The notes beneath the pieces were generated by a model. It was not told where the DNA came from and searched no databases. It was given only the letters and a program-made list of their open reading frames with translations. DNA of 49,833 bases from a virus: positions 1 to 49,833 of IMG/VR virus record IMGVR_UViG_3300008050_000063; one strand, given 5' to 3'. Within the stretch, counting starts at the first letter, position 1, and each line of letters begins with the position of its first letter. The position numbers and the translations under genes are program-made. Positions 4,089-46,797 of this stretch are shown in pieces.

Positions 4089-4099
4089 GGTACTTATAA

Positions 4100-4201
4100 A
4101 TGTTATTTTTGATCTGTATTGCTATAGGATGTTCTCTAGGATTTTTCAGTTTTAATATAATGTTATTGATTATGTTTTTATTTATCTTATTTCACGAGTA
4201 A
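4100..4201 (+). CDS. Small hydrophobic membrane peptide, 33 aa
   Basis: ATG at 4100 with SD TGAGG (4086-4090) that overlaps the stop codon of the exonuclease gene; stop TAA at 4199. The peptide is almost entirely hydrophobic (LFLICIAIGCSLGFF, then NIMLLIMFLFILF) and ends in HE, enough for one or two membrane passes. No family can be named; a small membrane peptide of this kind could be holin-like or bind a host membrane protein. It fills a gap that would otherwise be empty, and the next gene starts 11 bases later. Confidence 0.5.
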   Translation: MLFLICIAIGCSLGFFSFNIMLLIMFLFILFHE

Positions 4202-4212
4202 CAAAGGAATAT

Positions 4213-16902: not shown

Positions 16903-18714
16903 TTATCTTAAAAATCTAGCAATCGTTGTCGTGAAATGACTTACTATAATATCTTCATTCGTTTTATCTACTTGTAATACAATTTGTATAGTATCGTTTG
17001 TTTCAAGTTCTAATACATTTGTACCACTTATACCAAATGCTTCTCCTGCAGTTTTACAATATATTCCCATTTTTTGTGTTGCTAATATTTCACATTCTGT
17101 CCATGTACCTGTAGCATCATTAGCAACATATGCTGCATTAATATCAAAAGTGTCTGTTGTGACTCCACTAACAGTGAATAATCCATTATAATTAGTTGTA
17201 CCTACAATTTCAACACAATCATCGTTTGATAAACCATGACCAGTACTTGTTATCGTTGTGTTAGTTCCACTAGACATTGCGGTTATAGAGACAGGTGTAC
17301 TATTAGTCGAACATTTAGAAATACAAATGTGAGGAGTAGTACCATTAGAATCACTTTTAACTAGTGCATGATAATCTATCTCAAATTTTTCTGTTAAAGT
17401 TCCATCGTATCGTATCCTATCAGTCACAAAACTGAAATTAGTAAGATCGTTAGTAAAACTTCCAGCAATAGGGTACCAATTATTATTAATTTTACATGTT
17501 GTAGTTGTTGCAGTATTTAGATAAGCATATACACCAGCTAAATTTTGGAACCTGTTAAATTCACTCAGTGTCAAGTGTTGATAATCTCCAGTATTTAATC
17601 CTGCTAAACCATTATGTGACACACTTGAAGATGACGAACCACTAGATTGATATTTCCTTAAATCTACATAAACTTCTGTATTACCGTCATCCTCAAGAGT
17701 TCCATTTCTTTTGTAGATATACGCGAATTGAAATTGACACTCGGAAGATGATAAGCCTTCAAGATATAATGTATCAACATTCTTAAATAAAGCATTTCTA
17801 GCAGTGTTTCTATTAGGGTAAGCATGCTGCCCTACAACTTTAACTCGTCCTGGTTCACCATCTAAATTTGTTTCTAATATATAACCTATAACAAAGTCTG
17901 TAGAAGATGCACAATCTGTCAATTTCCAAATAGAACCATTCCACTCATTCCACACGGCGTTTGATCCGTTCATTAGTGCAATAGCGTTATCTGCTGTGTT
18001 ACTATGCAATTTCCAGCCACCAGTTGTCCCATCACGATACATGAATTTTAATGCTGTGCTTGTTGGTGTAGCTTTGATAATATCTTCATCATGATATACT
18101 CCAGTACTAATATTAGTAAATGTAGTAGAACCATCAGCTAATCCTGTTATATCACCACCGTGTGAATTTCTAAACTTTAAAGTCATGTGAGTTAAAAGGT
18201 GATCTGCAGAGTCCATAATGATACCATGAAACTCATCTTTAGCTAGCCATACAGTTCCTTCTTCTTTGTTATAGTATACTAATCCACAAATTGCAGATAC
18301 AAGGAAAATATCCTCAGTCATTGCGGAATTTTCAATAAATTGTAGTACCCCAGAAGTATCATAGTAAAAATAGTATGTGCCTGTAGTGTTTGTAAATGTT
18401 ATTGATTGAGTGGTTGTTTTTGAGTATTTTATACCACCAGCCCAGAAATAAAATTCCAATTCTCCACCTTTAACTGAATGTGAGAACGTTTGAGTACTCG
18501 CAACTGCTGATACTTCCCCTTTAGTATTTGGGTTTAATCTATTAAATCCTCTAGTATTAATATTTTTACTAGTAAATGACCCACCTAGTTGAACATTATC
18601 CCCACTAGTAGAAGGAGTTAAAGTATCACCTGCCTTTTCCCATAAAGATAAAGTTCTAGCATCATCGAGTTCAACTCCTGTACTTATATCTATTAAACCT
18701 CTTAATTTACCCAT
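16903..18714 (-). CDS. Tail-fibre/baseplate-type protein with swapped N-terminal tag, 603 aa
   Basis: Opens with MGKLRGLIDISTGVELDDA, the same 19 residues that begin the 100-aa protein at 22037. The rest is a chain of beta modules: a TYYFYYDTSGVLQFI region, HGGDITGLADGSTTF, a Ser-rich hinge (SSGSSSSSVSHNGLAGL) followed by GDYQHLTLSEFNRFQNL, and a C-terminal domain with STGHGLSNDDCVEIVG and ATQKMGIYCK. The hinge segment (HNGLAGL..GDYQHLT) is a common phage-fibre motif. Inferred: fibre attached through the short N-terminal tag. SD AAAAAGGACAT. Confidence 0.65.
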   Translation of the reverse strand: MGKLRGLIDISTGVELDDARTLSLWEKAGDTLTPSTSGDNVQLGGSFTSKNINTRGFNRLNPNTKGEVSAVASTQTFSHSVKGGELEFYFWAGGIKYSKTTTQSITFTNTTGTYYFYYDTSGVLQFIENSAMTEDIFLVSAICGLVYYNKEEGTVWLAKDEFHGIIMDSADHLLTHMTLKFRNSHGGDITGLADGSTTFTNISTGVYHDEDIIKATPTSTALKFMYRDGTTGGWKLHSNTADNAIALMNGSNAVWNEWNGSIWKLTDCASSTDFVIGYILETNLDGEPGRVKVVGQHAYPNRNTARNALFKNVDTLYLEGLSSSECQFQFAYIYKRNGTLEDDGNTEVYVDLRKYQSSGSSSSSVSHNGLAGLNTGDYQHLTLSEFNRFQNLAGVYAYLNTATTTTCKINNNWYPIAGSFTNDLTNFSFVTDRIRYDGTLTEKFEIDYHALVKSDSNGTTPHICISKCSTNSTPVSITAMSSGTNTTITSTGHGLSNDDCVEIVGTTNYNGLFTVSGVTTDTFDINAAYVANDATGTWTECEILATQKMGIYCKTAGEAFGISGTNVLELETNDTIQIVLQVDKTNEDIIVSHFTTTIARFLR

Positions 18715-22036: not shown

Positions 22037-22339
22037 TTATGAATATACTATACCAGTGATATTTCCGCTAGTATATGTATATGTCTTCGTTAAATCTATT
22101 CCGTCAGGGGTAGCACCACTAAGTACAATACTTGTCAAATTACCGCTTGTATAATTCAAAGTCTTTGTAATACCGTCAGCATATACAACACTTGTAAGAA
22201 CACCACTTGTGTAATTATATGTAGCATTTGACGATACAATATTGCTATTTACTGTTTCAAAACTCGATAAAGTTAATGAATTAGCATCATCGAGTTCAAC
22301 TCCTGTACTTATATCTATTAAACCTCTTAATTTGCCCAT
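22037..22339 (-). CDS. Short fibre-like protein sharing the N-terminal tag, 100 aa
   Basis: Codons 1-19 duplicate those of the 603-aa protein. The body is a run of beta repeats, YNYTSGVLTSVVYADG, LNYTSGNLTSIVLSG and YTYTSGNITGIVYS, resembling RHS/YD-like or fibre repeats. Too short to be a full fibre, so either a cap subunit or what is left after recombination replaced a longer body. SD AAAAGGAGTT. Confidence 0.6.
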   Translation of the reverse strand: MGKLRGLIDISTGVELDDANSLTLSSFETVNSNIVSSNATYNYTSGVLTSVVYADGITKTLNYTSGNLTSIVLSGATPDGIDLTKTYTYTSGNITGIVYS

Positions 22340-27585: not shown

Positions 27586-29481
27586 TTAAAATGATACAAG
27601 AATTGTTCCTGTGCCTTCAATATTCATTCCTAATTTTGTCATCATGTATGACAATCCTTTATCTGCCCAACCTTTAATAATTCCCCAGAATCTATCCCAG
27701 ATTTTTTTAAAACCTTCTGTTAATTTTGCTGCTAGTTTTCCAGAGAAATCTTTAACAGCATTGACAGCAGATTTTAGGTTCCAATCTAATAGAAGTTCTG
27801 CTTCTTCAAAGATAGGTGTTAATTCTTCATCAATTATAACGTTTAAATAATCCCATAATGAATTATTGTTAATTGACTCATTTACATTTTTTGCTTGAGA
27901 ACTAATTGCTAAAGCAGAACCACCACCAGTTTTTACCCTGACTTTAAAATCAACTTTATTAGCATATTGTTCTGACCACTTAATAGCAGATAAATCAGAA
28001 TATTCTTTAGTTCCTTCAGGACCAAATACTAAAATTTTATTTGCAATTGAGTCTGCTTCAGGACTTTTTGCAATTGCTTCATCAATATCTAGTAAACCAC
28101 TGTATTTATATGTTCCGGTTGCTGCTTCAAATATGCACCATTTCTTGTAATTGAAATCACCCATAATAACTTGTAACTTTTGATGCAAGTTTGCTTCTAA
28201 GTCTTTCATCTTGATAGCTTTCTGAACTTCATTCTGCATTTGTTTTGATTGTGTTTTAAGAAAATCCATATACCACTTATTGATAAAACCTTTATCAGGT
28301 ATTAATGATTTATCTAGTAATGTGTATGCATCTTTCTTAGGTAAATCAACAACCCCAGCTAAATCTTTTGAATTTTTCATTTCCCAATTTATTTGATTAT
28401 TGATTGCTGAGTTCTTTTCTGCTTTATTTTTACTTTTGATATTTTTGTCATACCATTTTTCTATTTCTTTTTTCCTCATTTCAACATAAGCTTCACGAAC
28501 TAATTTTCTAGTACCACCCATTCCATATTTGAATTTTGCAGTGAATGCTTTTTCTTCTGCTTCTTCAATAAATTGGTAAGCAAGTTTACTACTTTCACCT
28601 TTTTCAAACTTATCATAATACAACATACCAGCATATAGAACTCCTGCAGCATCTTTAGTTAATGAACCAGACATAAGCTGTGAACCACCAGTTTGTTTTA
28701 AACTTATTTGATTTTTCTTGTCACCTTTGATATCTGTTTTAGGTACATCTGATTTACCAAATCCTTTGGCGCCTTCTTGTGTAAGTAATGAAGAACCCCA
28801 ACCTTTGATGTGCTTAGGTGATGTACTTCCAAAAAATTCTAAACTTTTTCCTAAAGCACCTTTAGAATATTTTTTAATAACATTATTTCCAGTACTTATT
28901 AATTCATCAAAGAATGATTGAAATGTTGTTATATTATTTTTATCCATTTTTGCTAAACTGTATGCTTTTTCTAAATCTTCTGGTTTAGGTTTTTCTTGTA
29001 TAGATCCAGTTATCTGCCGTAAATTATATGCAACTGATATTCCCATTTCAAAATCTGCTGCTTTCGGTGCAGATGATTTTTTCCCAAGTGTTGCTTTGTT
29101 AATTTTGATACGATAAAATATATTTGTTGCTTTGTCAACACGTATAACTGCTTGCATACTGCTAGATGCATGATCTAAACCACCATTTACTATTTTAATA
29201 TCAGTTATACCTCTTGAATTAACTTCATCATTAACAGCAATACCAGCAGGAACTAGAATTACATTGTCTTTACCAAATACTTTTTGAAAATCTTTCTCTA
29301 CACTTTGTATCTTAACTTCATTATCAATTGTCATACTTGGACCACTATCACTTTTCGGATTAAGATAAATAATATCTGCTTTATCAAGTATATCTTTAAT
29401 TTTATTATTATTGTCTGACGTTGCAGATTCTTTAATTAATATTTTATTTTTTTCATCACAAAATTCTTTAAAACTTATCAT
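27586..29481 (-). CDS. Large probable capsid-internal protein with N-terminal targeting peptide, 631 aa
   Basis: ATG 29481 (MISFKEFCDEKNKILIKES) is preferred; the longer frame to 29613 reads through a remnant of the neighbouring gene in a wrong frame. The N-terminus contains I-K-E-S (cut after E18), a T4 prohead-protease type site. About residues 230-290 hold PKTDIKG...QISLKQTGGSQLMSG, which resembles the D...(D/E/S)xK core of PD-(D/E)XK nucleases. Lys-rich helices follow, then a C-terminal amphipathic region (FKKIWDRFWGIIKGWADKGL). Inferred: a packaged, possibly ejected protein. No family named. Confidence 0.6.
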   Translation of the reverse strand: MISFKEFCDEKNKILIKESATSDNNNKIKDILDKADIIYLNPKSDSGPSMTIDNEVKIQSVEKDFQKVFGKDNVILVPAGIAVNDEVNSRGITDIKIVNGGLDHASSSMQAVIRVDKATNIFYRIKINKATLGKKSSAPKAADFEMGISVAYNLRQITGSIQEKPKPEDLEKAYSLAKMDKNNITTFQSFFDELISTGNNVIKKYSKGALGKSLEFFGSTSPKHIKGWGSSLLTQEGAKGFGKSDVPKTDIKGDKKNQISLKQTGGSQLMSGSLTKDAAGVLYAGMLYYDKFEKGESSKLAYQFIEEAEEKAFTAKFKYGMGGTRKLVREAYVEMRKKEIEKWYDKNIKSKNKAEKNSAINNQINWEMKNSKDLAGVVDLPKKDAYTLLDKSLIPDKGFINKWYMDFLKTQSKQMQNEVQKAIKMKDLEANLHQKLQVIMGDFNYKKWCIFEAATGTYKYSGLLDIDEAIAKSPEADSIANKILVFGPEGTKEYSDLSAIKWSEQYANKVDFKVRVKTGGGSALAISSQAKNVNESINNNSLWDYLNVIIDEELTPIFEEAELLLDWNLKSAVNAVKDFSGKLAAKLTEGFKKIWDRFWGIIKGWADKGLSYMMTKLGMNIEGTGTILVSF

Positions 29482-29483
29482 TT

Positions 29484-29600
29484 TTATCCTACGAAAAACC
29501 CAATTGCTGGATATTCTGCTTTTATTTCTTCCATTAGAGCATCTCGCTCTGTTATACCTTCGTCTTTGATACTTGTGTTTACAGTTCCTCCTCCGAGAAT
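29484..29600 (-). pseudogene. Displaced C-terminal remnant of the neck-like gene
   Basis: Reading - strand from 29600 gives 38 codons plus stop that match the last 38 codons of the gene at 30381-31136: both begin ILGGGT and end EYPAIGF(F/Y)VG. 28 of 38 residues are identical and the other ten are conservative (V/I, T/S, D/E, R/K, F/Y). It lacks a start and is cut off by a stop just upstream. This is the older ending, separated from its gene by the HNH insertion. Confidence 0.85.
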
Positions 29601-29602
29601 TT
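29584..29602. repeat. 19-bp direct repeat at HNH cassette border, left copy
   Basis: GTTCCTCCTCCGAGAATTT, identical to 30481-30499 in the same orientation. The pair bounds an 897-bp unit holding the HNH gene and the replacement gene ending. Confidence 0.85.
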
Positions 29603-29641
29603 ACCAAACCCATTTTTTTAACCCAAGACTAAATTTTTTAT

Positions 29642-29677: not shown

Positions 29678-30403
29678 ATGAACTATCAAAAAAATTATAA
29701 CTTACTCATCGAAAAATATAAAAATCTAAATATTCAAAAAAGTAAAGAAATTAATCTTGAAAAACATCACATACTCCCAAAATCCATGGGTGGTACAAAC
29801 AATAAAGAAAATTTAGTTAATTTAACGGTAAAGGCACATTTTGTCGCTCACCATTTACTTTGGAAAATACATAGAAATAAAGAAATGGCATTTGCTTTTT
29901 GGCGAATGGTTAATAATAAAAATATTAATTTATCGATGTATGTAGAGGCAAAAAATAATTTTATAAAATTTAATAAAGGAGAAACAGCACCTAATTATGG
30001 TAAAAAACACACAGAAAAAACTAAGAACCAGATTAGTGTAACAATGAAAAAGAAAAATTTAACAGGAAAAAATAATTATTTTTATGGTAAAAAACACACA
30101 GAAAAAACTAAGAAAATGTATTCATTACAAAGAAAAGGAAAAACAAGACCCCAAAGTTTTATTGATAAAATGAAAACTAAAATGAAGGGGGAAAATAATC
30201 CAATGTTTGGTAAAAAAATATCAGAAGAACATAAAGAAAAAATTAGAGAAGCAAATCGTAAAAGAAAAGGTTTGCCTTCTCCTAACAAAGGCAAACCTCA
30301 AGATAAATCACAATGTCCGTTTTGTATGAAAATAGGCGGTAAGAGTAATATGAAACGTTATCATTTTAATAACTGCAGATCTAACCCACGTAAAAACCAA
30401 TAG
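29678..30403 (+). CDS. HNH homing endonuclease with NUMOD3-type repeats and zinc finger, 241 aa
   Basis: HNH core KHHILPKSMGGTNNKENLVN plus KAHFVAHHL (H30, H31, N45, H58, H59). Three DNA-binding repeats follow, of NUMOD3 type: NYGKKHTEKTKNQIS, FYGKKHTEKTKKMYS and MFGKKISEEHKEKIREA. A C-terminal CPFCMKIGG...RYHFNNC zinc finger ends the protein. Known: free-standing HNH enzymes spread by cutting alleles that lack them. Its 3' end overlaps the end of the neck-like gene by 23 bases, and its direction opposes all flanking genes. Paralogue of the protein at 38750. Confidence 0.9.
   Translation: MNYQKNYNLLIEKYKNLNIQKSKEINLEKHHILPKSMGGTNNKENLVNLTVKAHFVAHHLLWKIHRNKEMAFAFWRMVNNKNINLSMYVEAKNNFIKFNKGETAPNYGKKHTEKTKNQISVTMKKKNLTGKNNYFYGKKHTEKTKKMYSLQRKGKTRPQSFIDKMKTKMKGENNPMFGKKISEEHKEKIREANRKRKGLPSPNKGKPQDKSQCPFCMKIGGKSNMKRYHFNNCRSNPRKNQ
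29996..30112 (+). repeat. 30-bp exact repeat inside the HNH gene
   Basis: TATGGTAAAAAACACACAGA and the following ten bases occur at 29996-30025 and 30083-30112, 87 bp (29 codons) apart. They encode NUMOD3 units 1 and 2. Confidence 0.8.
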
Positions 30404-31136
30404 CAGGATATTCTGCTTTAAGTTCTTCTAAAAGTGTTTCTTTTTCTGCAATGCCTTCTTCCTTTATAGAAGAATTTATTGTTCCTCCTCCGAGAATTTG
30501 CACACCTTCATATTTTGCTCTAATATTTCCTAGTGTTATTTTTGCCTCTGCTAAACCTAAGCGTTTAACTATTGATTCACCATACTGTTGATCTTCAGGA
30601 CGTATTGTGTAACATCCACATACTACCCACGCAGCAGGAACATCACCACCAATTTTTGTAGGGTCTGGATTTAATTTAAGCATTTTTGTTCTGGGATTAT
30701 ATTCAAATTGATACCCTCCTCCAGTCATTCTTTTTGTGAGTTCAATTGATTGCATTGCGAGATGATAAGAAGTCCAACCACCTGGTGACATCATTGGCCA
30801 GGCTCCACCAGTTGCGTTCCAAAAAGCATTTTCAACTGTAAATAATGTGTTTATACCATCTGTTCTGATTCCACCATCATCATTGAACGCAAATACACCC
30901 TGTACATTTCCTGGCATTTCAAAACCAACACCTTGTACATATCCAGATAATGGGCATGCAATATATTCTTGTTCTTGTATTACCCAACGTGTAAATTCTT
31001 CAACTGAATCGTTTATACAATCATCAAGTTGGTCATCTGTTAACTCAGCTTGAATTAAAGGCCATCCTAATTTTCTTAAGATCCAACCCTTAAATTCCTC
31101 TCTGGTTGTTATTGAAAAGTCAAGATATGTTGACAT
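30381..31136 (-). CDS. Putative neck / head-tail connector protein, 251 aa
   Basis: Begins LDFSITTREEFKGWILRKLG, LIQAELTDDQLDDCINDSVEEFTRW, then a Gly/Pro-rich virion domain (GYVQGVGFEMPGNVQGVFAF) and a basic helical end. Similar proteins in large T4-like phages are annotated as neck or connector proteins (gp13-like), but I recall this rather than can prove it. The last 38 codons were replaced along with the HNH gene. Divergent from terminase with shared overlapping late promoters. Confidence 0.6.
   Translation of the reverse strand: MSTYLDFSITTREEFKGWILRKLGWPLIQAELTDDQLDDCINDSVEEFTRWVIQEQEYIACPLSGYVQGVGFEMPGNVQGVFAFNDDGGIRTDGINTLFTVENAFWNATGGAWPMMSPGGWTSYHLAMQSIELTKRMTGGGYQFEYNPRTKMLKLNPDPTKIGGDVPAAWVVCGCYTIRPEDQQYGESIVKRLGLAEAKITLGNIRAKYEGVQILGGGTINSSIKEEGIAEKETLLEELKAEYPAIGFYVG
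30481..30499. repeat. 19-bp direct repeat at HNH cassette border, right copy
   Basis: Encodes the Leu-Gly-Gly-Gly-Thr turn of the neck-like protein (- strand). Identity to 29584-29602 marks the crossover point. Confidence 0.85.
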
Positions 31137-35427: not shown

Positions 35428-36879
35428 TTACGCGTATGTGAAAACTCTTCCGTTTGCTCCGTCGCCAAGTAAGGCAGTAGATGCAAGATCGTCAATTTTT
35501 ATCATGTGATAATAATTTTCTGCGCCGAAGAGATGGTTTAAGATTCCGTAACGAGTACGAACACCAAGTCTAGGACTAAAGTTTTCTTGTGCAGTAGCAC
35601 GCATTAATTGAACTGGAATATACGGACAGTAGATAATACCAGAATCATAAGGAGTAGGTCCTTTATATCCAAGTAAAATGTAGTTTCCGCCAGCAAATGT
35701 ATCTCTGTAAAGAGTAATGTTTCCATTACGAAGAACTCCAACTTTTGCAATTCCAACAGCTCCAGTATCAACTTGTGATGATGCTTGATCTAATGTGAAA
35801 TCTTGAAGTCTTTCTAATACTGTGCAAGATTTTGGATCAGCTATTGCGAAAGTAGCAGGTCCACGTCTTGTTGTAATAGCAATTTCATTAGCTTTGTCTA
35901 ATACGTGAGTATATAGAGTACCAATTCTTTCTAATTGATTACGTCCATCTGCAGATACAGGAGACCAAGTAGATGTACGTCCACCGTGAATCGCTGCTCT
36001 TACCATTTCAGTAAGTAATTGTCTATCGATTTCTTGTTGAATTTCATAAGAAATAATATTAACCATTTCGTCATCAACGTTAACACCTTGCATTGCCATC
36101 ATATCTTCTGCAATTTCAAGAGAGAAAGCAGCAGCTAATTTACGTGAACGCGCAGTAACTGTACCTTTTTCCATTTTTAGTTTCGCCATTGGCATATCTT
36201 CACCAACGTTCCACCATTCTGAATCTCCAAGTGTAGCACCTTTACCAGATTCGTCATAAGTATTAACACCTAAATTAGTTGCTACACCAGAACCAGCAAA
36301 TGCTTCCCAGAAATCTCCTGTTCCAGCATTACCAGATGCACCAGTAAATGAAGAATCAATTTCATTGTAACCAATTTCTTTATTGTTCATATCTGTAGCA
36401 CCTTTACCATTAACTCCGTATTGTCCACGAAGAGCAAAAGCGAATCCAACAGGACCGTTCATTGGTTGAACACCAACAACACTATGTGCTAAAAGGTTAG
36501 GAAAGATACGTCTAACTGTAGGGATAACTACTGAAGGCATTCTAGCATCATCAGTTGCTCCACCACCATATCCAGGTTGTGCTCCGCCACCTTGTGCAGC
36601 ATTACCAGCATCCACAGGATAATTTCCAAATGCTCCACCACCAGCAAGCGGTGATGCTGCAGATGATTGTGCACCCATTGAACCAAATTGCGACATTGCC
36701 GCAGGTCCAGAATATGCTTCTGTTAAGTTAGCTTCTTCAGAGTTCTGAAGTACTATAGCAGTTGCTAATGCAACCTGTTCGTTTTGAATTGGAGCTTGGC
36801 CATCAGCTTCTAAAAGCGGTTGCCATTTTTCCAAACATTTTTCCTGATAGTCAGGACCTAGTTGTTTATAAAAACCCAT
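35428..36879 (-). CDS. 23: Major capsid protein (gp23-like)
   Basis: 483 aa (T4: 521). Features of gp23: an N-terminal propeptide with L-T-E54/A55, the prohead-protease consensus, then HK97-fold regions (PVGFAFALRGQYG, KLAAAFSLEIAEDMMAMQG, DRQLLTEMVRAAI, and the RYGILNHLFGAENYY end). Known: hexamers build the shell; maturation follows cleavage. A Gly/Ala/Gln-rich stretch at about 56-107 is longer than usual. No exact late box precedes it; a weaker CAATAAATA lies at about 36914-36922 within gene 22. Strong terminator follows. Confidence 0.93.
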   Translation of the reverse strand: MGFYKQLGPDYQEKCLEKWQPLLEADGQAPIQNEQVALATAIVLQNSEEANLTEAYSGPAAMSQFGSMGAQSSAASPLAGGGAFGNYPVDAGNAAQGGGAQPGYGGGATDDARMPSVVIPTVRRIFPNLLAHSVVGVQPMNGPVGFAFALRGQYGVNGKGATDMNNKEIGYNEIDSSFTGASGNAGTGDFWEAFAGSGVATNLGVNTYDESGKGATLGDSEWWNVGEDMPMAKLKMEKGTVTARSRKLAAAFSLEIAEDMMAMQGVNVDDEMVNIISYEIQQEIDRQLLTEMVRAAIHGGRTSTWSPVSADGRNQLERIGTLYTHVLDKANEIAITTRRGPATFAIADPKSCTVLERLQDFTLDQASSQVDTGAVGIAKVGVLRNGNITLYRDTFAGGNYILLGYKGPTPYDSGIIYCPYIPVQLMRATAQENFSPRLGVRTRYGILNHLFGAENYYHMIKIDDLASTALLGDGANGRVFTYA

Positions 36880-36906: not shown

Positions 36907-37827
36907 TTAGTGATTGTATTTATTGCTTCGTTTAAAACGATCAATGTAATGATTCATCATATCAGATGTATTACTATTTTTAGTTTTATCGTCAGCGGCA
37001 CCCTCAGTTAAGATTTTCTTAGGGTTAACATTAGAAGTTGCTTGATCTTTTAATTCTTCTCTTAAAAGAGTCTCATCTTCTTCGAAAGCTGCAATAGCTT
37101 CTTCAAACGTATCCTCAATTTCTTCTACGTCTGCATCTTTGAAACGAGTTTCAATATATGCACGCATTTTAGGATTTATGTTTTTACATTTATCTTCAAG
37201 CAAATTACTTGCTTCATTTCTTTTCAATTTTTTACTTAATTCAATTTTCTCAATCATCAAAGTATTAATCTCAGAATCTTTATCTTCAATAATTGTTTTA
37301 GCATCTTGAACAGCTTCTTTAATTTCTTCATCCATAGAGATTTCAGAGATTACAGCAATCTGTTTAATTTCGTTGAACATTTCTTCTAATTTTTCTAAAC
37401 GAACTGTATCTACGATTTTTCCTTCTGGAAGTTTATCTTCAATATAAACATCTAAGAAATCTGAAACTTTTCCTTCAAGTTCTTCCTGCATTCCATTTTC
37501 ATATTTTTCAACAACCTTTTTTAAACCAACAGTATGATCTTCATCAATTTTAGATAAAACACCTTCTAATAATTCAGTATGATCTTCATCAATTTTAGAT
37601 AAAACTTTGTTTAATGATTCAGTATGGTCTTCGTCAATTTTAGATACAACTTTATCTAAAAGAGCAATGTGTTTTTCGTCAACACTTTCTAAAGCTTCTT
37701 CAAATATTTTTTCTTTGTATTCTTTTATTTTTGTTTCAAAAAGAATGTTAAGCTCATCTTTTCTTTCTTCACTTATAACATCTTTTGATGATAAATCGTC
37801 TAAAAGCTTTTTAAATAAATCTTTCAT
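36907..37827 (-). CDS. 22: Prohead scaffold core protein (gp22-like) with 15-residue repeats
   Basis: 306 aa, highly charged, nearly all helical, between capsid and protease genes as in T4. Residues about 47-95 contain SKIDEDHTE-type units repeated three times plus degenerate copies on either side. Possible gp21 cut sites: V-I-S-E near residue 20 and I-L-T-E-G near 276. Ends HYIDRFKRSNKYNH. Known: gp22 forms the inner core that is degraded by gp21 on maturation. Assignment relies on position and composition. Confidence 0.85.
   Translation of the reverse strand: MKDLFKKLLDDLSSKDVISEERKDELNILFETKIKEYKEKIFEEALESVDEKHIALLDKVVSKIDEDHTESLNKVLSKIDEDHTELLEGVLSKIDEDHTVGLKKVVEKYENGMQEELEGKVSDFLDVYIEDKLPEGKIVDTVRLEKLEEMFNEIKQIAVISEISMDEEIKEAVQDAKTIIEDKDSEINTLMIEKIELSKKLKRNEASNLLEDKCKNINPKMRAYIETRFKDADVEEIEDTFEEAIAAFEEDETLLREELKDQATSNVNPKKILTEGAADDKTKNSNTSDMMNHYIDRFKRSNKYNH
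37531..37650 (-). repeat. 45-bp tandem repeat in the scaffold gene
   Basis: Units begin near 37531, 37576 and 37621 (each starts AGTATG on the + strand) and repeat ATCTTCATCAATTTTAGAT with few changes. The 15-codon period keeps frame and heptad-like helix spacing, so copy number could vary without frameshift. Confidence 0.8.
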
Positions 37828-38004: not shown

Positions 38005-38012
38005 TATTTATA
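38005..38012 (-). promoter_or_regulatory. Late promoter for gp67-like and gene 22
   Basis: TATTTATA on + strand, overlapping the last codons of the protease gene. Probably reads through to gene 23 because no closer exact box is present. Confidence 0.7.
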
Positions 38013-38718
38013 AGTTTATGTCCCTTATGAACTGCTTAAAAATATCATAAACGAATTCCCCACCTATATCTGTTTTTACAGAATGAGAAGGAATATTTTT
38101 TAAACCTTCGGTAAATTTATCGAAAGCTACTTCAATTATATCTCCATGATTATCAATCATAAATTCTTTTGATTCCATTATTCCATCCACAAAGCAACCA
38201 GGCCCAGATGGATCCACAACAGTGTCTACAGTAATCATCTTGTATTTTGTGTCAATTCTAGATGATTCATTAATTTCTCCAACACCTCTTGTTGATTTAC
38301 CAATCTTTCCACCGTGTTGTAATAATGAAGCAACTATATCACCATTTGGAGTTCCAATAATCCCAAATCTTGGGTCACTCGCCATAACAATTGATTCACC
38401 AATCCAGATTTTTCCATCTTGTTTAAGTGATAAAATTCTGTCACTTGCAAGTTTAGGATCAATTTTAGTGGACTGCGGATGATTTAACTCACCGTATGCT
38501 CTTTTTGTATCAATCCAATTTTTTTGAAAATCAGGGATAGTTTTTTCTTCTAACAACTTCTGAGAATATACTCTACCATTTGCGTTCTTAGTTTCAGAAA
38601 CAACATACGGTCCTTTAATTTTTATAGATAAAGGTTTTGTTGTGTTTTGTTGTTCAATGATTATATCATAATCAAAATTATCGAATAATGTTTCATATAT
38701 TAATTTAAGCGGCTTCAT
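38008..38718 (-). CDS. 21: Prohead core protease (gp21-like, family S80)
   Basis: 236 aa (T4: 212). Catalytic pattern of family S80/U9: AYGELNHPQS (H80) and KIGKSTRGVGEIN (S142), in a herpesvirus-assemblin-like fold; NANGRVYS and DPRFGIIGT are also typical. The N-terminus (MKPLKLIYET) carries an I-Y-E/T self-processing site. Known: cuts after (L/I)-x-E in gp23, scaffold and internal proteins. It therefore predicts which N-terminal tags in this window are removed. Confidence 0.92.
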   Translation of the reverse strand: MKPLKLIYETLFDNFDYDIIIEQQNTTKPLSIKIKGPYVVSETKNANGRVYSQKLLEEKTIPDFQKNWIDTKRAYGELNHPQSTKIDPKLASDRILSLKQDGKIWIGESIVMASDPRFGIIGTPNGDIVASLLQHGGKIGKSTRGVGEINESSRIDTKYKMITVDTVVDPSGPGCFVDGIMESKEFMIDNHGDIIEVAFDKFTEGLKNIPSHSVKTDIGGEFVYDIFKQFIRDINL

Positions 38719-38737: not shown

Positions 38738-38755
38738 ATTTATATTTATTTATAA
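38738..38755 (-). promoter_or_regulatory. Tandem late promoters for the protease gene
   Basis: Two TATTTATA boxes (+ strand) at 38738-38745 and 38748-38755, ten bases apart, about one helical turn, so they lie on the same DNA face. Confidence 0.65.
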
Positions 38756-39499
38756 GTTTATAAGTGTCTTACAATTTTTAAAATGCCATCTATGCATATT
38801 ACTTATCCCACCTATTTTATCACAATGTGGGCATTTAACTATATTCTGTTTTTTTCCTGATTTAGATTGACTTATTTTTGCTTTTGTTTTTTCAGAAACA
38901 AATTTATTTTTAGAAGATTGACTTATTTTTGCTTTTGTTTTTTCAGAATGTTTTCGATTTTTGAATTTTGTGCTCATTTCTTTACTTCTTTCTTTTAAAA
39001 TTTGTGTGTCAATATTTGGATTTAATCTACATTTAGCACCATGCCATCGTGCATACATGTGAGGATGTATTTTTTTATCACAGAAAATACATTTTTTGTG
39101 TTTTCTATTTTTGGCAGCTATTTTCATGTTATCAACACATTTTTTAGTTTTTCTGATTCCTTTAAATTGATTTGATAATCTTATACTAAATTCTTTTTTA
39201 ATTTTTTCATACATAGAAGAAGTTACTTTGTACTTTCTTTTATTGTTATTACTTGTTTTAGTTACGAACATCCAAAACGAATATATTATTTTATTATTGT
39301 TTGGATAAATTTTACAAAGTAAATGATGAGCAACAAAATGAGCTTTTGCTGTTAAATTAACTAAATTTTCTTTATTGTTTGTGCCTCCTATAGATTTAGG
39401 TAAGATGTGATGTGATTCAAGATATATATCTTGGCCTTTTTTAAAATTTAAAATTTTGTGTTTTTTAATAATCAAATCGTAGAGTTTCTGATAGTTCAT
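38750..39499 (-). CDS. HNH homing endonuclease paralogue, 249 aa
   Basis: HNH core SHHILPKSIGGTNNKENLVN plus KAHFVAHHL, almost the same as the enzyme at 29678. Two zinc-finger-like clusters (CIFCDKKIHPHMYARWHGAKC and CPHCDKIGGISNMHRWHF...C) flank NUMOD3-like units HSEKTKAKISQSSK and VSEKTKAKISQSKSG. It sits between portal and protease, where T4 has genes 67/68. Its mRNA start is under a promoter-in-hairpin switch (39509-39571). The pair shows one endonuclease family has entered the head region twice. Confidence 0.9.
   Translation of the reverse strand: MNYQKLYDLIIKKHKILNFKKGQDIYLESHHILPKSIGGTNNKENLVNLTAKAHFVAHHLLCKIYPNNNKIIYSFWMFVTKTSNNNKRKYKVTSSMYEKIKKEFSIRLSNQFKGIRKTKKCVDNMKIAAKNRKHKKCIFCDKKIHPHMYARWHGAKCRLNPNIDTQILKERSKEMSTKFKNRKHSEKTKAKISQSSKNKFVSEKTKAKISQSKSGKKQNIVKCPHCDKIGGISNMHRWHFKNCKTLINL
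38864..38947 (-). repeat. 33-bp direct repeat in the HNH paralogue
   Basis: AGATTGACTTATTTTTGCTT and the bases following occur at 38864-38896 and 38915-38947, 51 bp (17 codons) apart. They encode the tandem SEKTKAKISQS units. Confidence 0.8.
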
Positions 39500-41360: not shown

Positions 41361-42332
41361 TTGAAAACTCGTTCATATAATTCGGAAATCAGGACAGCAA
41401 CTGCACAGACATTAGATGTTTTTAACAACATTATAATAGACAGAAGGGATTCTTCTGGTATTCAAAAATTGATAGAAGTTCCTTGCTACTACGGTAATAG
41501 AAGTAGAATTTTAAAATCTTTAGAAAACGAAAACAAAACTTTAAAAATTCCTCTAATTACTTTAGTCAAGGGTTCAATATCAAGAGATACGATGAGAGTA
41601 GCCGATACAAATAACGGACTATTATTCCAAAGTGGCACAGCTGACGGCTATGATGTACTCAAAAACAGACCACAACCAATGAATATAGAATTTGAATTAT
41701 CAATCATTACAAAATATGAAGATGATATGGACCAAATTATTTCAAATTTTATACCGATGATGTCACCAGATTTTTATGTTGTTTGGCCTAATCCAAAACA
41801 ACCTGGGAAAAATCTTAAATCCCAGGTAGTATGGGATGGTGCAATAAATTATGAATATCCTACTGATGTATCTGAAACTGATCCTTATAGAATAATTGTA
41901 ACAACTAACTTAGTGTATAAAACATGGATTTTTCCAGGATTGGGAGAGGATCCAGATGACGGTCCGTTGATTCGTAAAATGAATTTCTGTCCTAATCTCT
42001 TAAGTATTGGTGACGGTAACTTTGGATTGGATCGTTGGTATGATGTTCCTATGGGAATGACAATTAACGAATATCAGGAAAATGTTGTATGCGGAATGAT
42101 TAAAATGGATAGAACTCGTGCAAATTGGGATTGGTTACCTTGTTCAGTTTCTGGTATTCCTTCAGGATATCCTCCTTCAGGAAGTTCTTGGCCTCCATTG
42201 ACTGCTATAATTGCAGAGTGTTGTACATCAGGTTGTGCTACAGGTGACATAATAAGTTCAATACCACCAGAAGAATTAAATAATCTTAATTATCTTTTCA
42301 ATGAAAATAATATAATAATACTAGGAGAATAA
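41361..42332 (+). CDS. 15: Tail sheath stabiliser / tail completion protein (gp15-like), TTG start
   Basis: 323 aa (T4 gp15: 272). Aligns by eye with T4 gp15: YNSEIRTATAQTLDVFNNI and PMNIEFELSIITKYEDDMDQ correspond to gp15 YNSSFRRYATLMGDLFSNI and PIKMIYELSIFTRYEDDMFQ. Known: a hexamer capping the contractile tail where it meets the head. TTG at 41361 is supported by AAAGGAG at good spacing and no better ATG. A Cys/Pro-rich C-terminal extension (PSGYPPSGSSWPP, ECCTSGCATGD) is absent from T4. Confidence 0.85.
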   Translation: MKTRSYNSEIRTATAQTLDVFNNIIIDRRDSSGIQKLIEVPCYYGNRSRILKSLENENKTLKIPLITLVKGSISRDTMRVADTNNGLLFQSGTADGYDVLKNRPQPMNIEFELSIITKYEDDMDQIISNFIPMMSPDFYVVWPNPKQPGKNLKSQVVWDGAINYEYPTDVSETDPYRIIVTTNLVYKTWIFPGLGEDPDDGPLIRKMNFCPNLLSIGDGNFGLDRWYDVPMGMTINEYQENVVCGMIKMDRTRANWDWLPCSVSGIPSGYPPSGSSWPPLTAIIAECCTSGCATGDIISSIPPEELNNLNYLFNENNIIILGE

Positions 42333-42650
42333 ATGATAGCAGAAAATTTAGCAATAAATAATTTAAACATGTTGTATAATGAGATATGTTTTGCAGAAAA
42401 TATAAATAATAACATAAAAAATCCAAAAATAGCAAAGATGCTTATTGATTGGAAAAAGAAATGGTCTAAAACTAGTAATGATAAAGCTAAAGTTGATAAG
42501 ACACTTAAAAGATTAGCAGAACTATTAGGCAATAACTCAGAAAATACTGACTTGATGGATAGAATAACAAGTTATTTCATAATATTATCAAAAAATGTAA
42601 ATGATGAAGCAAATGACGAACTGTCAAAAATATTAGGAGAAATAGAATAA
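42333..42650 (+). CDS. Hypothetical helical protein, 105 aa
   Basis: Starts directly after the gp15 stop (TAA-ATG), SD AGGAGAA. All-helical and charged (KMLIDWKKKWSKTS, VDKTLKRLAELLG). Lacks the short (L/I)-x-E tag seen in its downstream neighbours. No family recognised; could be a small neck or core component. Its stop overlaps the next ATG (TAATG). Confidence 0.6.
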   Translation: MIAENLAINNLNMLYNEICFAENINNNIKNPKIAKMLIDWKKKWSKTSNDKAKVDKTLKRLAELLGNNSENTDLMDRITSYFIILSKNVNDEANDELSKILGEIE

Positions 42651-43543
42651 TGAAATTTGGAGAATTAACTTTAATATTTGAGGGTGGAAATGCTGTACAA
42701 GGTGTAACACGAATCAATCAAGAAAATGTGCAACAAACATTAGACAATATTATAAACGACTTGAAAAAGAACACTCCTCTAACTGAAAAGGACGTGGCAT
42801 CTCTAGGTTCAACAGGAAAGAAAAACAAAGGTGGTTCTTCTGGTGATATTGATTTAGCAGTTGACTTTACAAAATTGATTAGTAAGGATGTTAAAGATAT
42901 TGATGATGTTTTAATTTATCTAAAGAATCTAGCAGACAAGTTGTCAGCAAATACAAAACTATCTAAAGGTTTAGGTGAAGTTCATTTAGCATATCCTATT
43001 GCAAATGTTGATGGTAAACAGAAAGATGAATTTGTACAATTAGATTTTATGCCAACAGATAATATGGCATTTTCAAAATTTACATATTACTCACCTGCAG
43101 AATGGGAAAGTAAATACAAAGGATTGCATAGGAATATTTTGTTATTTGCAATACTTAAATTTTCAACCCTTGAGGTTCTTGAGACTGGTGAAGATGCTGA
43201 AGGTAATGAAGTCCCTGCTGTTGTTCGTAAAGTTTTACTTAATATGGGCAAAGGACTTTCAAAAGTTACTCAAAGTTTCAAAGGTAAAAAAGGTAATATA
43301 ACTAAAGGAAGTAAAGCAATCAAAAGAGAATTTTTATCAAATGATCCAGAATTGATTACAAATATGGTTGTAGGCTCAGAATTTGGTCCAAAAGATATAA
43401 TGAAGTATGATGACTTAATTAAAATTGTTTTAAGTTCAACATTCATTCATAAAAAACAACGTAACGAAATATTGAAAGAAGCAGGAAATACATTTATTAA
43501 ATTAGGTGCACTGTTTCCATCTGAATTAAAGGAATATGTATAA
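42650..43543 (+). CDS. Pol-beta-type nucleotidyltransferase with capsid-targeting-like N-terminus
   Basis: 297 aa. GSTGKKNKGGSSGDIDLAVD at 53-72 is the signature hG[S/G]...SGDhDh of the nucleotidyltransferase fold (catalytic D66, D68); FVQLDFMP later can supply the third acid. The N-terminus MKFGELTLIFEGG holds I-F-E/G, a gp21-type cut site. Known: the fold transfers NMP to nucleic acids, sugars, drugs or proteins. Inferred: carried in the capsid and delivered with DNA. Target unknown. Overlaps both neighbours by start/stop, next to the ligase-like gene. Confidence 0.7.
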   Translation: MKFGELTLIFEGGNAVQGVTRINQENVQQTLDNIINDLKKNTPLTEKDVASLGSTGKKNKGGSSGDIDLAVDFTKLISKDVKDIDDVLIYLKNLADKLSANTKLSKGLGEVHLAYPIANVDGKQKDEFVQLDFMPTDNMAFSKFTYYSPAEWESKYKGLHRNILLFAILKFSTLEVLETGEDAEGNEVPAVVRKVLLNMGKGLSKVTQSFKGKKGNITKGSKAIKREFLSNDPELITNMVVGSEFGPKDIMKYDDLIKIVLSSTFIHKKQRNEILKEAGNTFIKLGALFPSELKEYV

Positions 43544-44703
43544 TGAAATTTTCAATGCTCCTAGAAGCTTTAAACACTGATAAGAATTTTATTCTGAAAA
43601 TCAAAGCAATGAATAAAAAACAGATGGTTGAATTTATTAAAAAAATTGCACCTTATGTTAAAAATGGTAAAATAAATTCTACAGAATTAAATATAACAGA
43701 AAAAGTAGATGGGTCTAGTGTTAAAATATCTTGGTATAATGATGCTATTAATATTGAATCAAGTTATTCGGGTATGGTAAGTGATCCGAATGATTTCAAG
43801 AAAAATCCATTCGGTGAACCTTTTGCTGAGGTTCTGAAATATTATCAGAAAACATTTACAAAACAATTTAGAAAAACATTCGGTGATAAAAACTTTAAAG
43901 TTGTTGGAGAATTATTTTATACTAAAGATATTGAAACTGATAAAGATGGTTCTGTTACATTTGTAGCAACTAAATACAATCCAAAAATGTTAGGAAAAAT
44001 TGCAACGGTTGTGACATTTACTGCTTTAGAATATGATGGAAACTCTTTCTCAAAACCAAATAATAAAATACTAAAACAATTCAATAACATTTCTGATAAG
44101 AATGTTACTGTACAAACTATCAAAGAACTTAAATTCCAATCTGAAATTAATATGGACGTTCCTGTATTACAACAGATTCTGAAAAAACCTGAAAAAATAT
44201 TAGAAGATAAAGAATTGTTGGAAACTGTCCGTGCTGCGTTTATTGCAAGTTTTGGAGATGCATTAAAAAATGCAAAACAATATGAAGGTGATTTAAAATC
44301 TATTGGTTCTGTAATTGAAGGAATAGTTTTAGATTTAGGGGAACTTCAAGTGGCATTCCAAAATCCTGAATGGCAGAAAATGCATAAAGAACTATGGAAC
44401 ATACCTGAGATGATGGGAGAAATTGATAAAGAGTTTTATTTTGACATTATTGCTAAAAGATCAAAAGTCAGTGTTAAAAAATATTTACGACAAAATGGAT
44501 TTGATGAAGAATTAAGAAATAAACTTAAAACAGCAATTCCGGTACTGGTAAAGAAGTATAATAAACTAAAGGTGCCTCAAGATATACCTAAGAATTTGAA
44601 AAAAGGACAGGAAAAAGGATTGAAAAATAGAATGGCGCAAGTCAATAACCTAAGTGCAGATAGTGAACAATCACTTAAGCAATTTATAAATATGAAAGAT
44701 TAA
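43543..44703 (+). CDS. ATP-dependent nucleic-acid ligase-like protein with capsid-targeting-like N-terminus
   Basis: 386 aa. Motif I EKVDGSS with K54; motif Ia-like ESSYSGM (72-78); motif III VVGELFY (120-126); IIIa-like FTALEYDG; motif IV VIEGIVL (258-263). These are in covalent-nucleotidyltransferase (RNA/DNA ligase) order and spacing. The motif V lysines are not obvious (LQVAFQNPEWQKM), so activity is not certain. Starts MKFSMLLEA with L-L-E/A cut site. Inferred: packaged RNA or DNA repair ligase paired with the nucleotidyltransferase. Confidence 0.65.
   Translation: MKFSMLLEALNTDKNFILKIKAMNKKQMVEFIKKIAPYVKNGKINSTELNITEKVDGSSVKISWYNDAINIESSYSGMVSDPNDFKKNPFGEPFAEVLKYYQKTFTKQFRKTFGDKNFKVVGELFYTKDIETDKDGSVTFVATKYNPKMLGKIATVVTFTALEYDGNSFSKPNNKILKQFNNISDKNVTVQTIKELKFQSEINMDVPVLQQILKKPEKILEDKELLETVRAAFIASFGDALKNAKQYEGDLKSIGSVIEGIVLDLGELQVAFQNPEWQKMHKELWNIPEMMGEIDKEFYFDIIAKRSKVSVKKYLRQNGFDEELRNKLKTAIPVLVKKYNKLKVPQDIPKNLKKGQEKGLKNRMAQVNNLSADSEQSLKQFINMKD
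44685..44692 (+). promoter_or_regulatory. Late promoter for the 85-aa tagged protein
   Basis: TATAAATA within the last codons of the ligase-like gene, 27 bases before ATG 44719; SD AAAGGAAA. Confidence 0.65.
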
Positions 44704-44718
44704 AAAAAGGAAAATAAT

Positions 44719-44976
44719 ATGAAATTTGAAGAAAAAATAGAAACGTTACTTACAGAAGGATCATCAATGCATTCAGTTGGTAAAATCTTAGCAGTAATAG
44801 ATGCACAGTTAGCAGATTTAATTAAAGCAGTTAAAGGACAAAATGGTGCAGATGATGATGCTATAGAAAACTCTTCTGAGATAACTAAACCTGCAGCAGC
44901 ATTCCGTAAAGAACTGAAAAAATTAAAAAAATCCCACGGTAAAGAAGAGGTATGGTTTAGAGGATCATATAAATAA
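44719..44976 (+). CDS. Small tagged protein, 85 aa, capsid-internal candidate
   Basis: MKFEEKIETLLTEGSS has L-T-E/G, a very good match to the T4 prohead-protease site (cut after E13). The rest is helical (MHSVGKILAVIDAQLADLIKAV) with a basic end (KKLKKSHGKEEVWFRGSYK). No enzyme motif. Size and basic character are like T4 internal proteins IPI-IPIII, some of which counter host restriction. That role here is inference. Confidence 0.65.
   Translation: MKFEEKIETLLTEGSSMHSVGKILAVIDAQLADLIKAVKGQNGADDDAIENSSEITKPAAAFRKELKKLKKSHGKEEVWFRGSYK
44968..44975 (+). promoter_or_regulatory. Late promoter for the HxGH gene
   Basis: TATAAATA overlapping the stop of the 85-aa gene, 36 bases before ATG 45012. 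Confidence 0.7.
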
Positions 44977-45011
44977 AGATTTAACATAAAACCAGTTAAA
45001 GGAATAATAAA

Positions 45012-45599
45012 ATGAAATTTTTCGAACTTGAAAAATATTATATGATAGAAGATAAAAGAAAAACGGTTGCGGTTGTACCGGGTTCTTTTAAACCTCCTCA
45101 TGCAGGTCACTGGGATATGATTAAAAAATATTCAAAACAAGCAGATGAGGTTTTTGTAATAATTTCTGCACCTGGAAAACAAAAACGCACAACAAAAACT
45201 GGGAATGAAATTACTCCAAAAACAGCAGTTAAAATATTTGAAATTTTCAATAAAGCGACTGGATTAAAGAATGTAAAATTTATCATTTCAGATTCTCCGT
45301 CACCTGTCAAAGCTACTTATGATTATGTTGAATACGAATTAAAAGATGTTGATGTGTTGTTAGGTGCAAGTGACAAAGGTGGAGATTTTAAAAGATGGAT
45401 GAGCACTCCTAAATATTTTGCAGAACATAATCCGTCGGTTACTATTATTGATCCAAAGAAAGCGGCTGTGAAGGCATTTAAAAATGTCTCAGCATCAACT
45501 ATCCGAGACAATATAGACAACCACGAATTAATTAAAGAATTATTACCGACAGAATTATCAGAAAAAGATATAAATAAAATTATAGAAATATTGACATAG
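45012..45599 (+). CDS. HxGH nucleotidylyltransferase (NMNAT/cytidylyltransferase superfamily), tagged
   Basis: 195 aa. AVVPGSFKPPHAGHWDMI contains the HxGH nucleotide-binding motif (H30-A-G-H33). VSASTIRD (161-165) is the ISxTxxR-type second motif and DVLLGASDKGGDF lies between. Known relatives: NMN, phosphopantetheine, FAD and glycerol-3-phosphate nucleotidyltransferases. Similar proteins with short tags are found in other T4-like phages. The N-terminus MKFFELEKYYMIEDK has a weaker site (M-I-E/D). Inferred: cofactor or NAD-related reaction at the start of infection. Confidence 0.8.
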   Translation: MKFFELEKYYMIEDKRKTVAVVPGSFKPPHAGHWDMIKKYSKQADEVFVIISAPGKQKRTTKTGNEITPKTAVKIFEIFNKATGLKNVKFIISDSPSPVKATYDYVEYELKDVDVLLGASDKGGDFKRWMSTPKYFAEHNPSVTIIDPKKAAVKAFKNVSASTIRDNIDNHELIKELLPTELSEKDINKIIEILT

Positions 45600-45609
45600 G
45601 AATTCTAAA

Positions 45610-45909
45610 ATGAAATTTAAAGAAGCAATAAATTTTTACTTAACAGAAGCAAAAAAAATAACTATTGATATCGATATGGATTGGTCTGAAGAAAGAGCAA
45701 TTAAAAAATCTGCTATTAGATTCGGTATTAAAATAAAAGAAACGGGTAGAACTACCGCAGATATAACAGGACAACCAGAAGATATCAAAAAATATCTTTT
45801 AAGTTCTTACTATGGAATGGATGAAAAAGATATTGAAGAAATTTACCCAGAGCTGGGGAAAATTAATGAAAGTAAAAAAATTACCAAAGTCAGCGATTTT
45901 ATGTGTTAA
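45610..45909 (+). CDS. Tagged hypothetical protein, 99 aa
   Basis: MKFKEAINFYLTEAKK has L-T-E/A (cut after E13), identical to the site in the major capsid protein. The remainder alternates beta strand and helix (ITIDIDMDWSEERAIKKSA, TTADITGQPEDIKKYLLSS), a ferredoxin-like pattern, and is followed by an acidic EEIYPELGKI. No family recognised. SD AGGAATT. Inferred capsid-internal protein. Confidence 0.6.
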   Translation: MKFKEAINFYLTEAKKITIDIDMDWSEERAIKKSAIRFGIKIKETGRTTADITGQPEDIKKYLLSSYYGMDEKDIEEIYPELGKINESKKITKVSDFMC

Positions 45910-45911
45910 TT

Positions 45912-46124
45912 ATGGAAATACGTTTACCACAAACTACTTTTAAATCTGTACCAAGCAGAGCATGGGTTTATATATCATTAGGTATTATGATTCTATTGAT
46001 TTTGGTAGGTGCAGCATTTTATAAACACGGTGGGATATATATCAAAACCGAAAAAGAATCATTAAAAGAATCTAAAAATAAAATTGAACAGATTAATAAA
46101 GGAATAAATGAAAATATTAAATGA
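45912..46124 (+). CDS. Single-span membrane protein, 70 aa
   Basis: I chose ATG 45912 (MEIRLPQTTFK); a GTG at 45903 is also in frame. One clear membrane span, WVYISLGIMILLILVGAAFY, follows a short N-terminal segment, then a Lys/Glu coiled-coil tail. It is the only membrane protein in the tagged-protein run; candidates are a holin-like or injection-channel component. The start of the next gene overlaps its end by 17 bases. Confidence 0.55.
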   Translation: MEIRLPQTTFKSVPSRAWVYISLGIMILLILVGAAFYKHGGIYIKTEKESLKESKNKIEQINKGINENIK

Positions 46125-46797
46125 AACAAAAGTAGACGGAAAAATTAAGAAAATTGTGAAGGTGAAAACCCCAGCAATGATGAGTGATAGTGCTAAATTA
46201 AAACAATCATTTTCTGGGTGGTATATTCCTAAAGAAAGTATGTTAATTTATTTTAATTTTGGTTATCATCGTAGATGGATGAATAGATTTTGGCCTGGTT
46301 TAAACGCACGTGATGTCGCTAGCAGGGGATTAACAGAACCAGCGATAAAAGAAAAAGACAAAGGTACTGACAAAATAATTAAGAAATATAAAGACAAAAT
46401 TAAAAAACTTAAAGACTTTAAATGGGACGGTTTAAATGCGGTCAATGTTGATTATGAGGATTTGTATGCATTAGGTTGGATGCGTATTAACTTATACAGT
46501 AAAGAATTAACAATTACCCATGATTCAAAAAACCCAGATGCTGCAAAAAATTTACTATTGTGGTGTTCTGAACAAAAAATGCCGGTTTTTTCTGCTACAA
46601 TTTATGATAATTCTCATTATACATCAATTGATCTCACAGGTGAAGAATTTAAACAATTGTCTGCAACGATCAACACAAAAAATGTTACAGGTGATTTAAT
46701 TGACCAAGTAAGAAATCAGATGTTTGGTCCTGGATTTTACACTGATGAGAAAATTACATTTGCGGATGTTGTTAATTTCTTACTTGAAAAAAAATAA
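46108..46797 (+). CDS. Hypothetical tagged-type protein, 229 aa
   Basis: MKILNETKVDGK has L-N-E/T at residues 4-6, a possible but very short protease tag. The body has aromatic-rich strands (SGWYIPKESMLIYFNFGYH), a Lys-rich helix (KGTDKIIKKYKDKIKKLKD), and LGWMRINLYSKELTITHDS. No family recognised. Last gene before convergence with the gp44 operon. Confidence 0.55.
   Translation: MKILNETKVDGKIKKIVKVKTPAMMSDSAKLKQSFSGWYIPKESMLIYFNFGYHRRWMNRFWPGLNARDVASRGLTEPAIKEKDKGTDKIIKKYKDKIKKLKDFKWDGLNAVNVDYEDLYALGWMRINLYSKELTITHDSKNPDAAKNLLLWCSEQKMPVFSATIYDNSHYTSIDLTGEEFKQLSATINTKNVTGDLIDQVRNQMFGPGFYTDEKITFADVVNFLLEKK

Follow-up and report, generated by a model that had tools for sequence, protein, structure and literature searches.

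The window, the whole 49,833-base viral record from IMG/VR that was analysed here, carries seven genes on the plus strand 3' of a T4-type tail gene, gp15. The question raised by this cassette is whether its products, among them a nucleotidyltransferase, a ligase-like protein and an HxGH nucleotidylyltransferase, are packed in the phage head, trimmed there and delivered to the host. The source of the window is a marine T4-like phage, and an earlier note on the DNA had proposed such a head-packaged, trimmed enzyme set. The proposal is now supported by a cleavage junction that is fixed among relatives and equivalent to the start of leaderless homologues, by late-promoter-like boxes, by an S77 protease gene and by published virion mass spectrometry (MS). 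As judged from sequence, the cassette proteins are very probably packaged in the head and trimmed.

Cassette genes and leaders

The cassette encodes, in order, proteins of 297, 386, 85, 195, 99, ~70 and 229 residues. Five of these have N-terminal leaders of 8–13 residues ending in a junction that is kept in homologues (a slash marks the predicted cut). The pol-beta-superfamily nucleotidyltransferase (297 residues; 42650..43543) starts with MKFGELTLIFE (42650–42682) followed by GGNAV, and the RNA-ligase-like protein (386 residues; 43543..44703) with MKFSMLLE/A (43543–43566). The 85-residue protein (44719..44976), which has no assigned function, carries a leader of its neighbours' type, MKFEEKIETLLTE/G (44719–44757). 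The HxGH nucleotidylyltransferase (NMNAT/cytidylyltransferase-like, 195 residues; 45012..45599) begins with MKFFELEKYYMIE/D (45012–45050), in which Met occupies P3, and the 99-residue protein of no assigned function (45610..45909) with MKFKEAINFYLTE/A (45610–45648). A membrane-type open reading frame (ORF) of 70 or 73 residues (45903 or 45912 to 46124) is without a leader and is a weak member of the interval. The weakest member is the 229-residue protein (46108..46797), to which no function was assigned and whose possible leader, MKILNE/T, was read from position and an [LI]xE site only; it gave no homologue in phage isolates and no family match in the profile libraries.

All of the sites that the earlier note had named in MKF-type starts with (L/I)-x-E were present in the sequence, and MKFFELEKYYMIE/D is a further site missing from its list. 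Its sites in the capsid protein and the protease were likewise found. The gp23-like major capsid protein (35428..36879, minus strand), identified by alignment with T4 gp23, has a candidate maturation site NLTE/A at E54, the T4 counterpart of which is FLTE/A at E65. The gp21-like prohead protease (S77; 38008..38718, minus strand) itself starts MKPLKLIYE/T and is the presumed cutter of the cassette leaders. It was matched by PF03420 (Peptidase_S77) at 5.9e-19 and by phrog_207 at 4.3e-39, and its nearest isolate relatives, at ~34% identity, are those of Pelagibacter and Synechococcus T4-like phages.

MKF starts were found in five of the seven cassette genes and in none of the 53 other ORFs of the window (p=3.8e-6), and [LIM]xE within residues 4–16 in 6/7 against 11/53 (p=0.0014), both patterns having been picked after the cassette had been seen. 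Since the leader motif by itself is frequent in T4-like phages, it was not accepted as proof; the relatives decide the leader question.

The junction in relatives

Single-protein scans of IMG/VR returned the identical contig only; homologues came from profile scans, which gave 44 nucleotidyltransferase loci, and a later search with a ligase profile added more. Among about a dozen lineages the nucleotidyltransferase leaders vary in sequence and in length (5–16 residues; the N-terminus of L068 is longer). Examples are MISFKKFIAE/GGNAV, MLTFKKFIIE/GGNAV, MILKE/GGNVF and MTIRFKTFIKE/GGNAV, as well as MLAYKQFLENKRQLSE/GGNAV, MITFRKFMSLNE/GGNAV, MKSFKKYVQSLTE/GGNAV, MKQFNHFRETITE/GGNAV and MINFKQFIQINE/GGNAV. 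In all leader-bearing copies read, Glu precedes GG and P3 is L or I. Leaderless homologues have their start Met at the junction (M-GGNVF, M-GGHVF, M-GGKAF, and M-SGMAI in Lak phages), and therefore a cut after Glu would restore the native N-terminus.

The same relation was seen with two other cassette proteins. The L065 homologue of the 99-residue protein has a 10-residue leader, MKTFKETLVE, and aligns from the junction onward, while the Lak homologue of the 195-residue protein begins at the end of the extension. In the AlphaFold2 model of the nucleotidyltransferase (predicted local distance difference test, pLDDT, 89), values below 50 were confined to residues 1–12. Presence of an S77 protease fails to separate leader-bearing from leaderless homologues, as the enzyme also occurs in Lak and other large phages. 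Certain Lak proteins (L004 8845–9228, L007 8834–9214, L005 6680–8812) have the common N-termini MxKNxKRALYExIMKDVSKTIKRKINEN or MKRKLNES; these are perhaps leaders of the Lak phages' own.

Late-promoter-like boxes

The T4 late-promoter box TATAAATA occurs 25 times in the window against 11.7 expected. Sixteen of the 25 copies lie 19–37 nucleotides 5' of same-strand ORF starts, where random placement, which takes no account of intergenic AT-richness, would give 0.74. Genes fronted by the box include gp15, the portal gene, the protease gene, the gene read as terminase and three cassette genes. The latter boxes, all on the plus strand, are at 44685..44692 (27 nucleotides 5' of the 85-residue gene), 44968..44975 (37 nucleotides 5' of the 195-residue gene) and 45569..45576 (34 nucleotides 5' of the 99-residue gene). 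Directly 5' of the first two cassette genes there is no box; transcription from gp15 (41361..42332, plus strand) could cover them. That gene encodes a tail-sheath stabiliser (PF16724, 9.8e-24), lies directly 5' of the cassette and has a box 33 nucleotides upstream. Late expression of the cassette, which the earlier note had taken for granted, is supported by the positions of these predicted boxes.

The three enzymes

The nucleotidyltransferase has the motif GSTGKK..SGDIDLA and a third Asp (Asp132), invariant among homologues, and the predicted fold gave 50 listed PDB matches, all of them DNA polymerase beta or lambda (E ~1e-4; template-modelling, TM, score ~0.4); motif and predicted fold thus bear out the earlier pol-beta call. 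There was no match to a PHROG profile, to the Pol-beta palm profile PF14792 or, for the window protein and its relatives at E<=10, to the RlaP profile PF10127. Its Pfam matches were not credible; DUF447_C, GGDEF and other weak Pfam matches to the window were judged to be due to chance. The protein belongs to a family outside the profile libraries whose predicted fold is nearest to DNA polymerase beta/lambda. In the isolate phage collection a detectable relative was found in Lak phages only.

The 386-residue protein has ligase motif I as EKVDGSS and is homologous to the ligases of L065, L071 and L075. The description of it as ligase-like stands up: its match to PF09414 (RNA_ligase) falls just under the curated cut-off of 27 bits, and the L065 homologue, at 31.4 bits, is above it. 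When the protein was compared with T4 Rnl1, Rnl2 and DNA ligase using hhalign, the motif IV–V alignment was weakly closest to T4 Rnl1. A tblastn search of isolate phages gave no match, as did profile searches of solved structures, and the predicted model was too poor for use.

The 195-residue protein scored 29.6 bits with PF01467 (CTP_transf_like; cut-off 21), in agreement with the earlier assignment, and matched phrog_3041 (2.7e-10) and phrog_3462 (5.4e-10). The HxGH motif is present as PHAGH and the STxxR-type motif as SASTIR. NMNAT-type homologues of Atu_ph07, B23 (gp46) and VmeM-32 are without a leader.

Linkage of the enzymes

The three putative enzymes are genetically linked, both by adjacency and by domain fusions. 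The ligase gene adjoins the nucleotidyltransferase gene, in either order, in 10/10 ligase lineages with enough sequence (the window, L065, L071, L075, L197, L198, L199, L201, L202 and L203). Nearly all of these ligase and nucleotidyltransferase genes encode leaders of their own, and most of the lineages also have an HxGH gene only a few genes away. The nucleotidyltransferase is fused to DUF6267 in L091 and to an A3-type ligase in the L077 region, where the reading crosses one TAG; in L110, DUF6267 is fused to an HxGH domain, and the phrog_455 profile spans both. Leaders occur on the DUF6267 proteins of HTVC008M (MYNDLLVE/D) and L069 (MEIQSFSSFLTE/S) and are lacking from those of P-SSM4 and S-SZBM1. 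No mention of DUF6267 by that name was found in the literature searched, here and below open-access papers, with most subscription journals outside the search.

In HTVC008M, a cultured Pelagibacter phage (L036 11768–19719), a run of leader-like starts adjoins a cytidyltransferase gene. They are MLSFTGYSNLSE/A, the DUF6267 start given above, MIPFILKE/G on a P-loop/Zeta-toxin-like protein, and MTRYTKTMAE/A.

Virion cytidylyltransferases

Virion MS has detected a cytidylyltransferase of the T4-GC190 family in S-SM1 (PMC3037559) and cytidylyltransferase/NMNAT-like proteins in S-SZBM1 (PMC9146016), S-SCSM1 (PMC9602691) and S-CREM2 (PMC10665884). The portions of these reports consulted list no N-terminal peptides. 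When the virion cytidylyltransferase genes were translated, leaders were read in S-SZBM1 (MRFRQFIIE/A), S-SCSM1 (MKSFLQFLKE/A) and S-CREM2 (MKNFSSFLTE/A), and orthologues have MKKFSAFLKE/A (P-SSM4), MKSFTSFFTE/A (P-TIM68) and MKKYLEFIIE/A (B23). The literature search for RNA ligase in virions gave no paper matching the full query.

In S-SCSM1, a phrog_1462 protein of no assigned function (L187 27459–28793) bears a virion-protein annotation; in L065 a protein of the same family (3714–5090) is encoded directly 5' of the ligase/nucleotidyltransferase pair.

Proposed role and alternatives

The best reading, and in our view a probable one, is a T4-style set of capsid-targeted, gp21-trimmed nucleic-acid repair proteins that is delivered at infection. 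For the window's own proteins we infer packaging, cleavage, injection and substrates. The main cassette proteins would be made late, each with an 8–13-residue N-terminal capsid-targeting leader that would direct it to the scaffold core of the prohead. A cut by the gp21 protease after the Glu of [LIM]xE would free the mature enzyme inside the head, from which it would exit with the DNA at infection. Before phage gene expression, the pol-beta-like transferase may then supply missing nucleotides and the ligase-like protein close the break, while the HxGH enzyme may transfer an adenylyl or cytidylyl group, making, for example, nicotinamide adenine dinucleotide (NAD) or an activated end. The targets would be RNA that defence RNases have cut, host tRNA included, or nicks and gaps of the incoming genome.

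Several observations weigh against this reading. In T4, HTVC008M, B23 and part of S-CREM2 the permissive leader pattern is present at 10–15% of N-termini, and at 7–9% of internal methionines. The window ligase scored 25.5 bits (1.7e-5) with PF09414, under the cut-off, and its motif V is displaced or lost. The HxGH proteins detected in virions belong to the T4-GC190 family, which is distant from the 195-residue protein (BLAST E ~0.001 at best), and the authors of the S-CREM2 (PMC10665884) and S-SCSM1 (PMC9602691) studies caution that such proteins may co-purify. The literature searched gave no virion detection of a ligase or nucleotidyltransferase of the window type.

The constant pairing with a ligase-like partner, fusions included, points to nucleic-acid ends as the target, and on balance the predicted set seems to act there. 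RNA is slightly favoured over DNA as the substrate because of the RNA_ligase match and the known pairing of phage pol-beta transferases with RNA ligases (PMC7824862). The Pol-beta fold match favours DNA gap repair instead, and the same packaged, trimmed proteins could possibly, if less plausibly, serve as a pol-X-like gap filler and a ligase that mend the entering phage genome. African swine fever virus repairs nicks and gaps with a PolX and a ligase. The 50 listed structural matches were all to DNA polymerase beta/lambda, the motif resembles a Pol-X palm, and incoming DNA is a substrate on hand at time zero; yet the palm profile gave no match, the fold match is moderate, and the ligase matches RNA_ligase and no DNA-ligase family, with its motif IV–V nearest, weakly, to T4 Rnl1.

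It is improbable that the proteins are packaged to tag host targets or to set cofactor levels, by protein nucleotidylylation or NAD supply. The packaged T4 enzyme Alt does modify the host, pol-beta transferases can modify proteins (PMC5512222), and the HxGH domain resembles NMNAT families, but the constant ligase-like partner argues for nucleic-acid ends. Very improbable is a set of unpackaged, late cytoplasmic enzymes whose N-termini resemble a frequent short helical type in which [LI]xE occurs by chance, as the frequency of the permissive pattern and the leaderless DUF6267 proteins might suggest, since the junction is kept while leader sequence and length vary, a start Met replaces the leader in other homologues, and leader-bearing cytidylyltransferases have been seen by virion MS.

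Should the repair reading be true, some phages answer nucleic-acid damage, such as tRNA cleavage by host defences, at entry. Whether widespread uncultivated phages pack an end-repair kit of transferase, ligase and HxGH enzyme, with which host RNA or incoming DNA is repaired before phage gene expression, is evenly balanced in our estimate. A capsid-targeting leader offers an explanation for the recurring cytidylyltransferases in cyanophage virion proteomes, and the junction rule ([LIV]xE, then the start of a leaderless homologue) provides a sequence test for head cargo in uncultivated phages.

Other features of the window

T4-type head and tail genes were identified by profile (gp15 and gp21) and by alignment with T4 (gp23), while putative gp20, gp22 and terminase genes were read from sequence and position. 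The scaffold gene (gp22-like by position; 36907..37827, minus strand) lies between the protease and capsid genes, and a site scan of its product gave ten candidate [LI]xE sites, each followed by A/G/S/T/D. A candidate extra cargo protein of 631 residues (27586..29481, minus strand), outside the cassette, starts MISFKEFCDEKNKILIKE/S and is weakly similar to gp126 of HTVC008M (MLSFTGYSNLSE/A). The ORF is of 675 residues (27586–29613, minus strand), the true start probably being the internal Met at 29481. The C-terminal end encoded by the neighbouring gene 30381–31136 is nearly duplicated in another frame just upstream of this Met, adjoining a putative homing endonuclease gene (29678–30403). The latter and 38750–39499 encode two related HNH-type putative homing endonucleases with MNYQK(L/N)Y.. 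starts, each among structural genes. The N-terminus MGKLRGLIDISTGVELDDA(R/N) is common to two proteins (16903–18714 and 22037–22339) encoded among putative tail-fibre genes.

Comparison with known systems

The effectors known to be delivered from phage heads are mainly ADP-ribosyltransferases, restriction inhibitors and virion RNA polymerases. Packaging has also been argued for ADP-ribosyltransferase, Macro, NADAR and Nudix proteins (PMC9503650). Targeting by a capsid-targeting sequence (CTS) and virion-associated cytidylyltransferases are already known; the searches of open-access papers turned up none that describes a ligase/nucleotidyltransferase set targeted to the capsid.

T4 internal proteins are targeted by a CTS and trimmed by gp21 (PMC5694885, PMC3012670). 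The cassette resembles T4 IPI–IPIII and Alt in its short N-terminal leaders ending in [LI]xE, its S77 protease and its predicted late expression; T4 leaders are of 6–10 residues, that of IPII/IPIII (proteins identified by sequence) being MKTYQEFIAE/A. Among these T4 proteins Alt is, as is proposed for the cassette products, an enzyme that is packaged (PMC5694885, PMC3012670). Unlike these T4 proteins, which comprise a restriction inhibitor and an ADP-ribosyltransferase, the window cargo would be a linked nucleotidyltransferase/ligase/HxGH set, known from its sequence. The cyanophage virion cytidylyltransferases (T4-GC190; phrog_395/3041) are, like the 195-residue protein, leader-bearing members of the HxGH superfamily, whereas the window protein is shorter, NMNAT-like and weakly similar to them, and its gene sits alongside those of a ligase and a pol-beta enzyme.

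Jumbo phages have RNA-repair pairs of an RNA ligase and RlaP, a pol-beta enzyme (PMC7824862), and in the window, too, a pol-beta transferase goes with a putative ATP-dependent enzyme of the RNA-ligase type. The DUF6267/phrog_455 proteins present the same pairing as fusions, some with leaders; their ligase-like (KWDGAP) sequences have no detectable similarity to the window ligase, which is a separate gene. In contrast to the RlaP pairs, the window pair gives no match to PF10127. It is leader-bearing and lies behind late-promoter-like boxes; delivery is therefore more probable than synthesis after infection.

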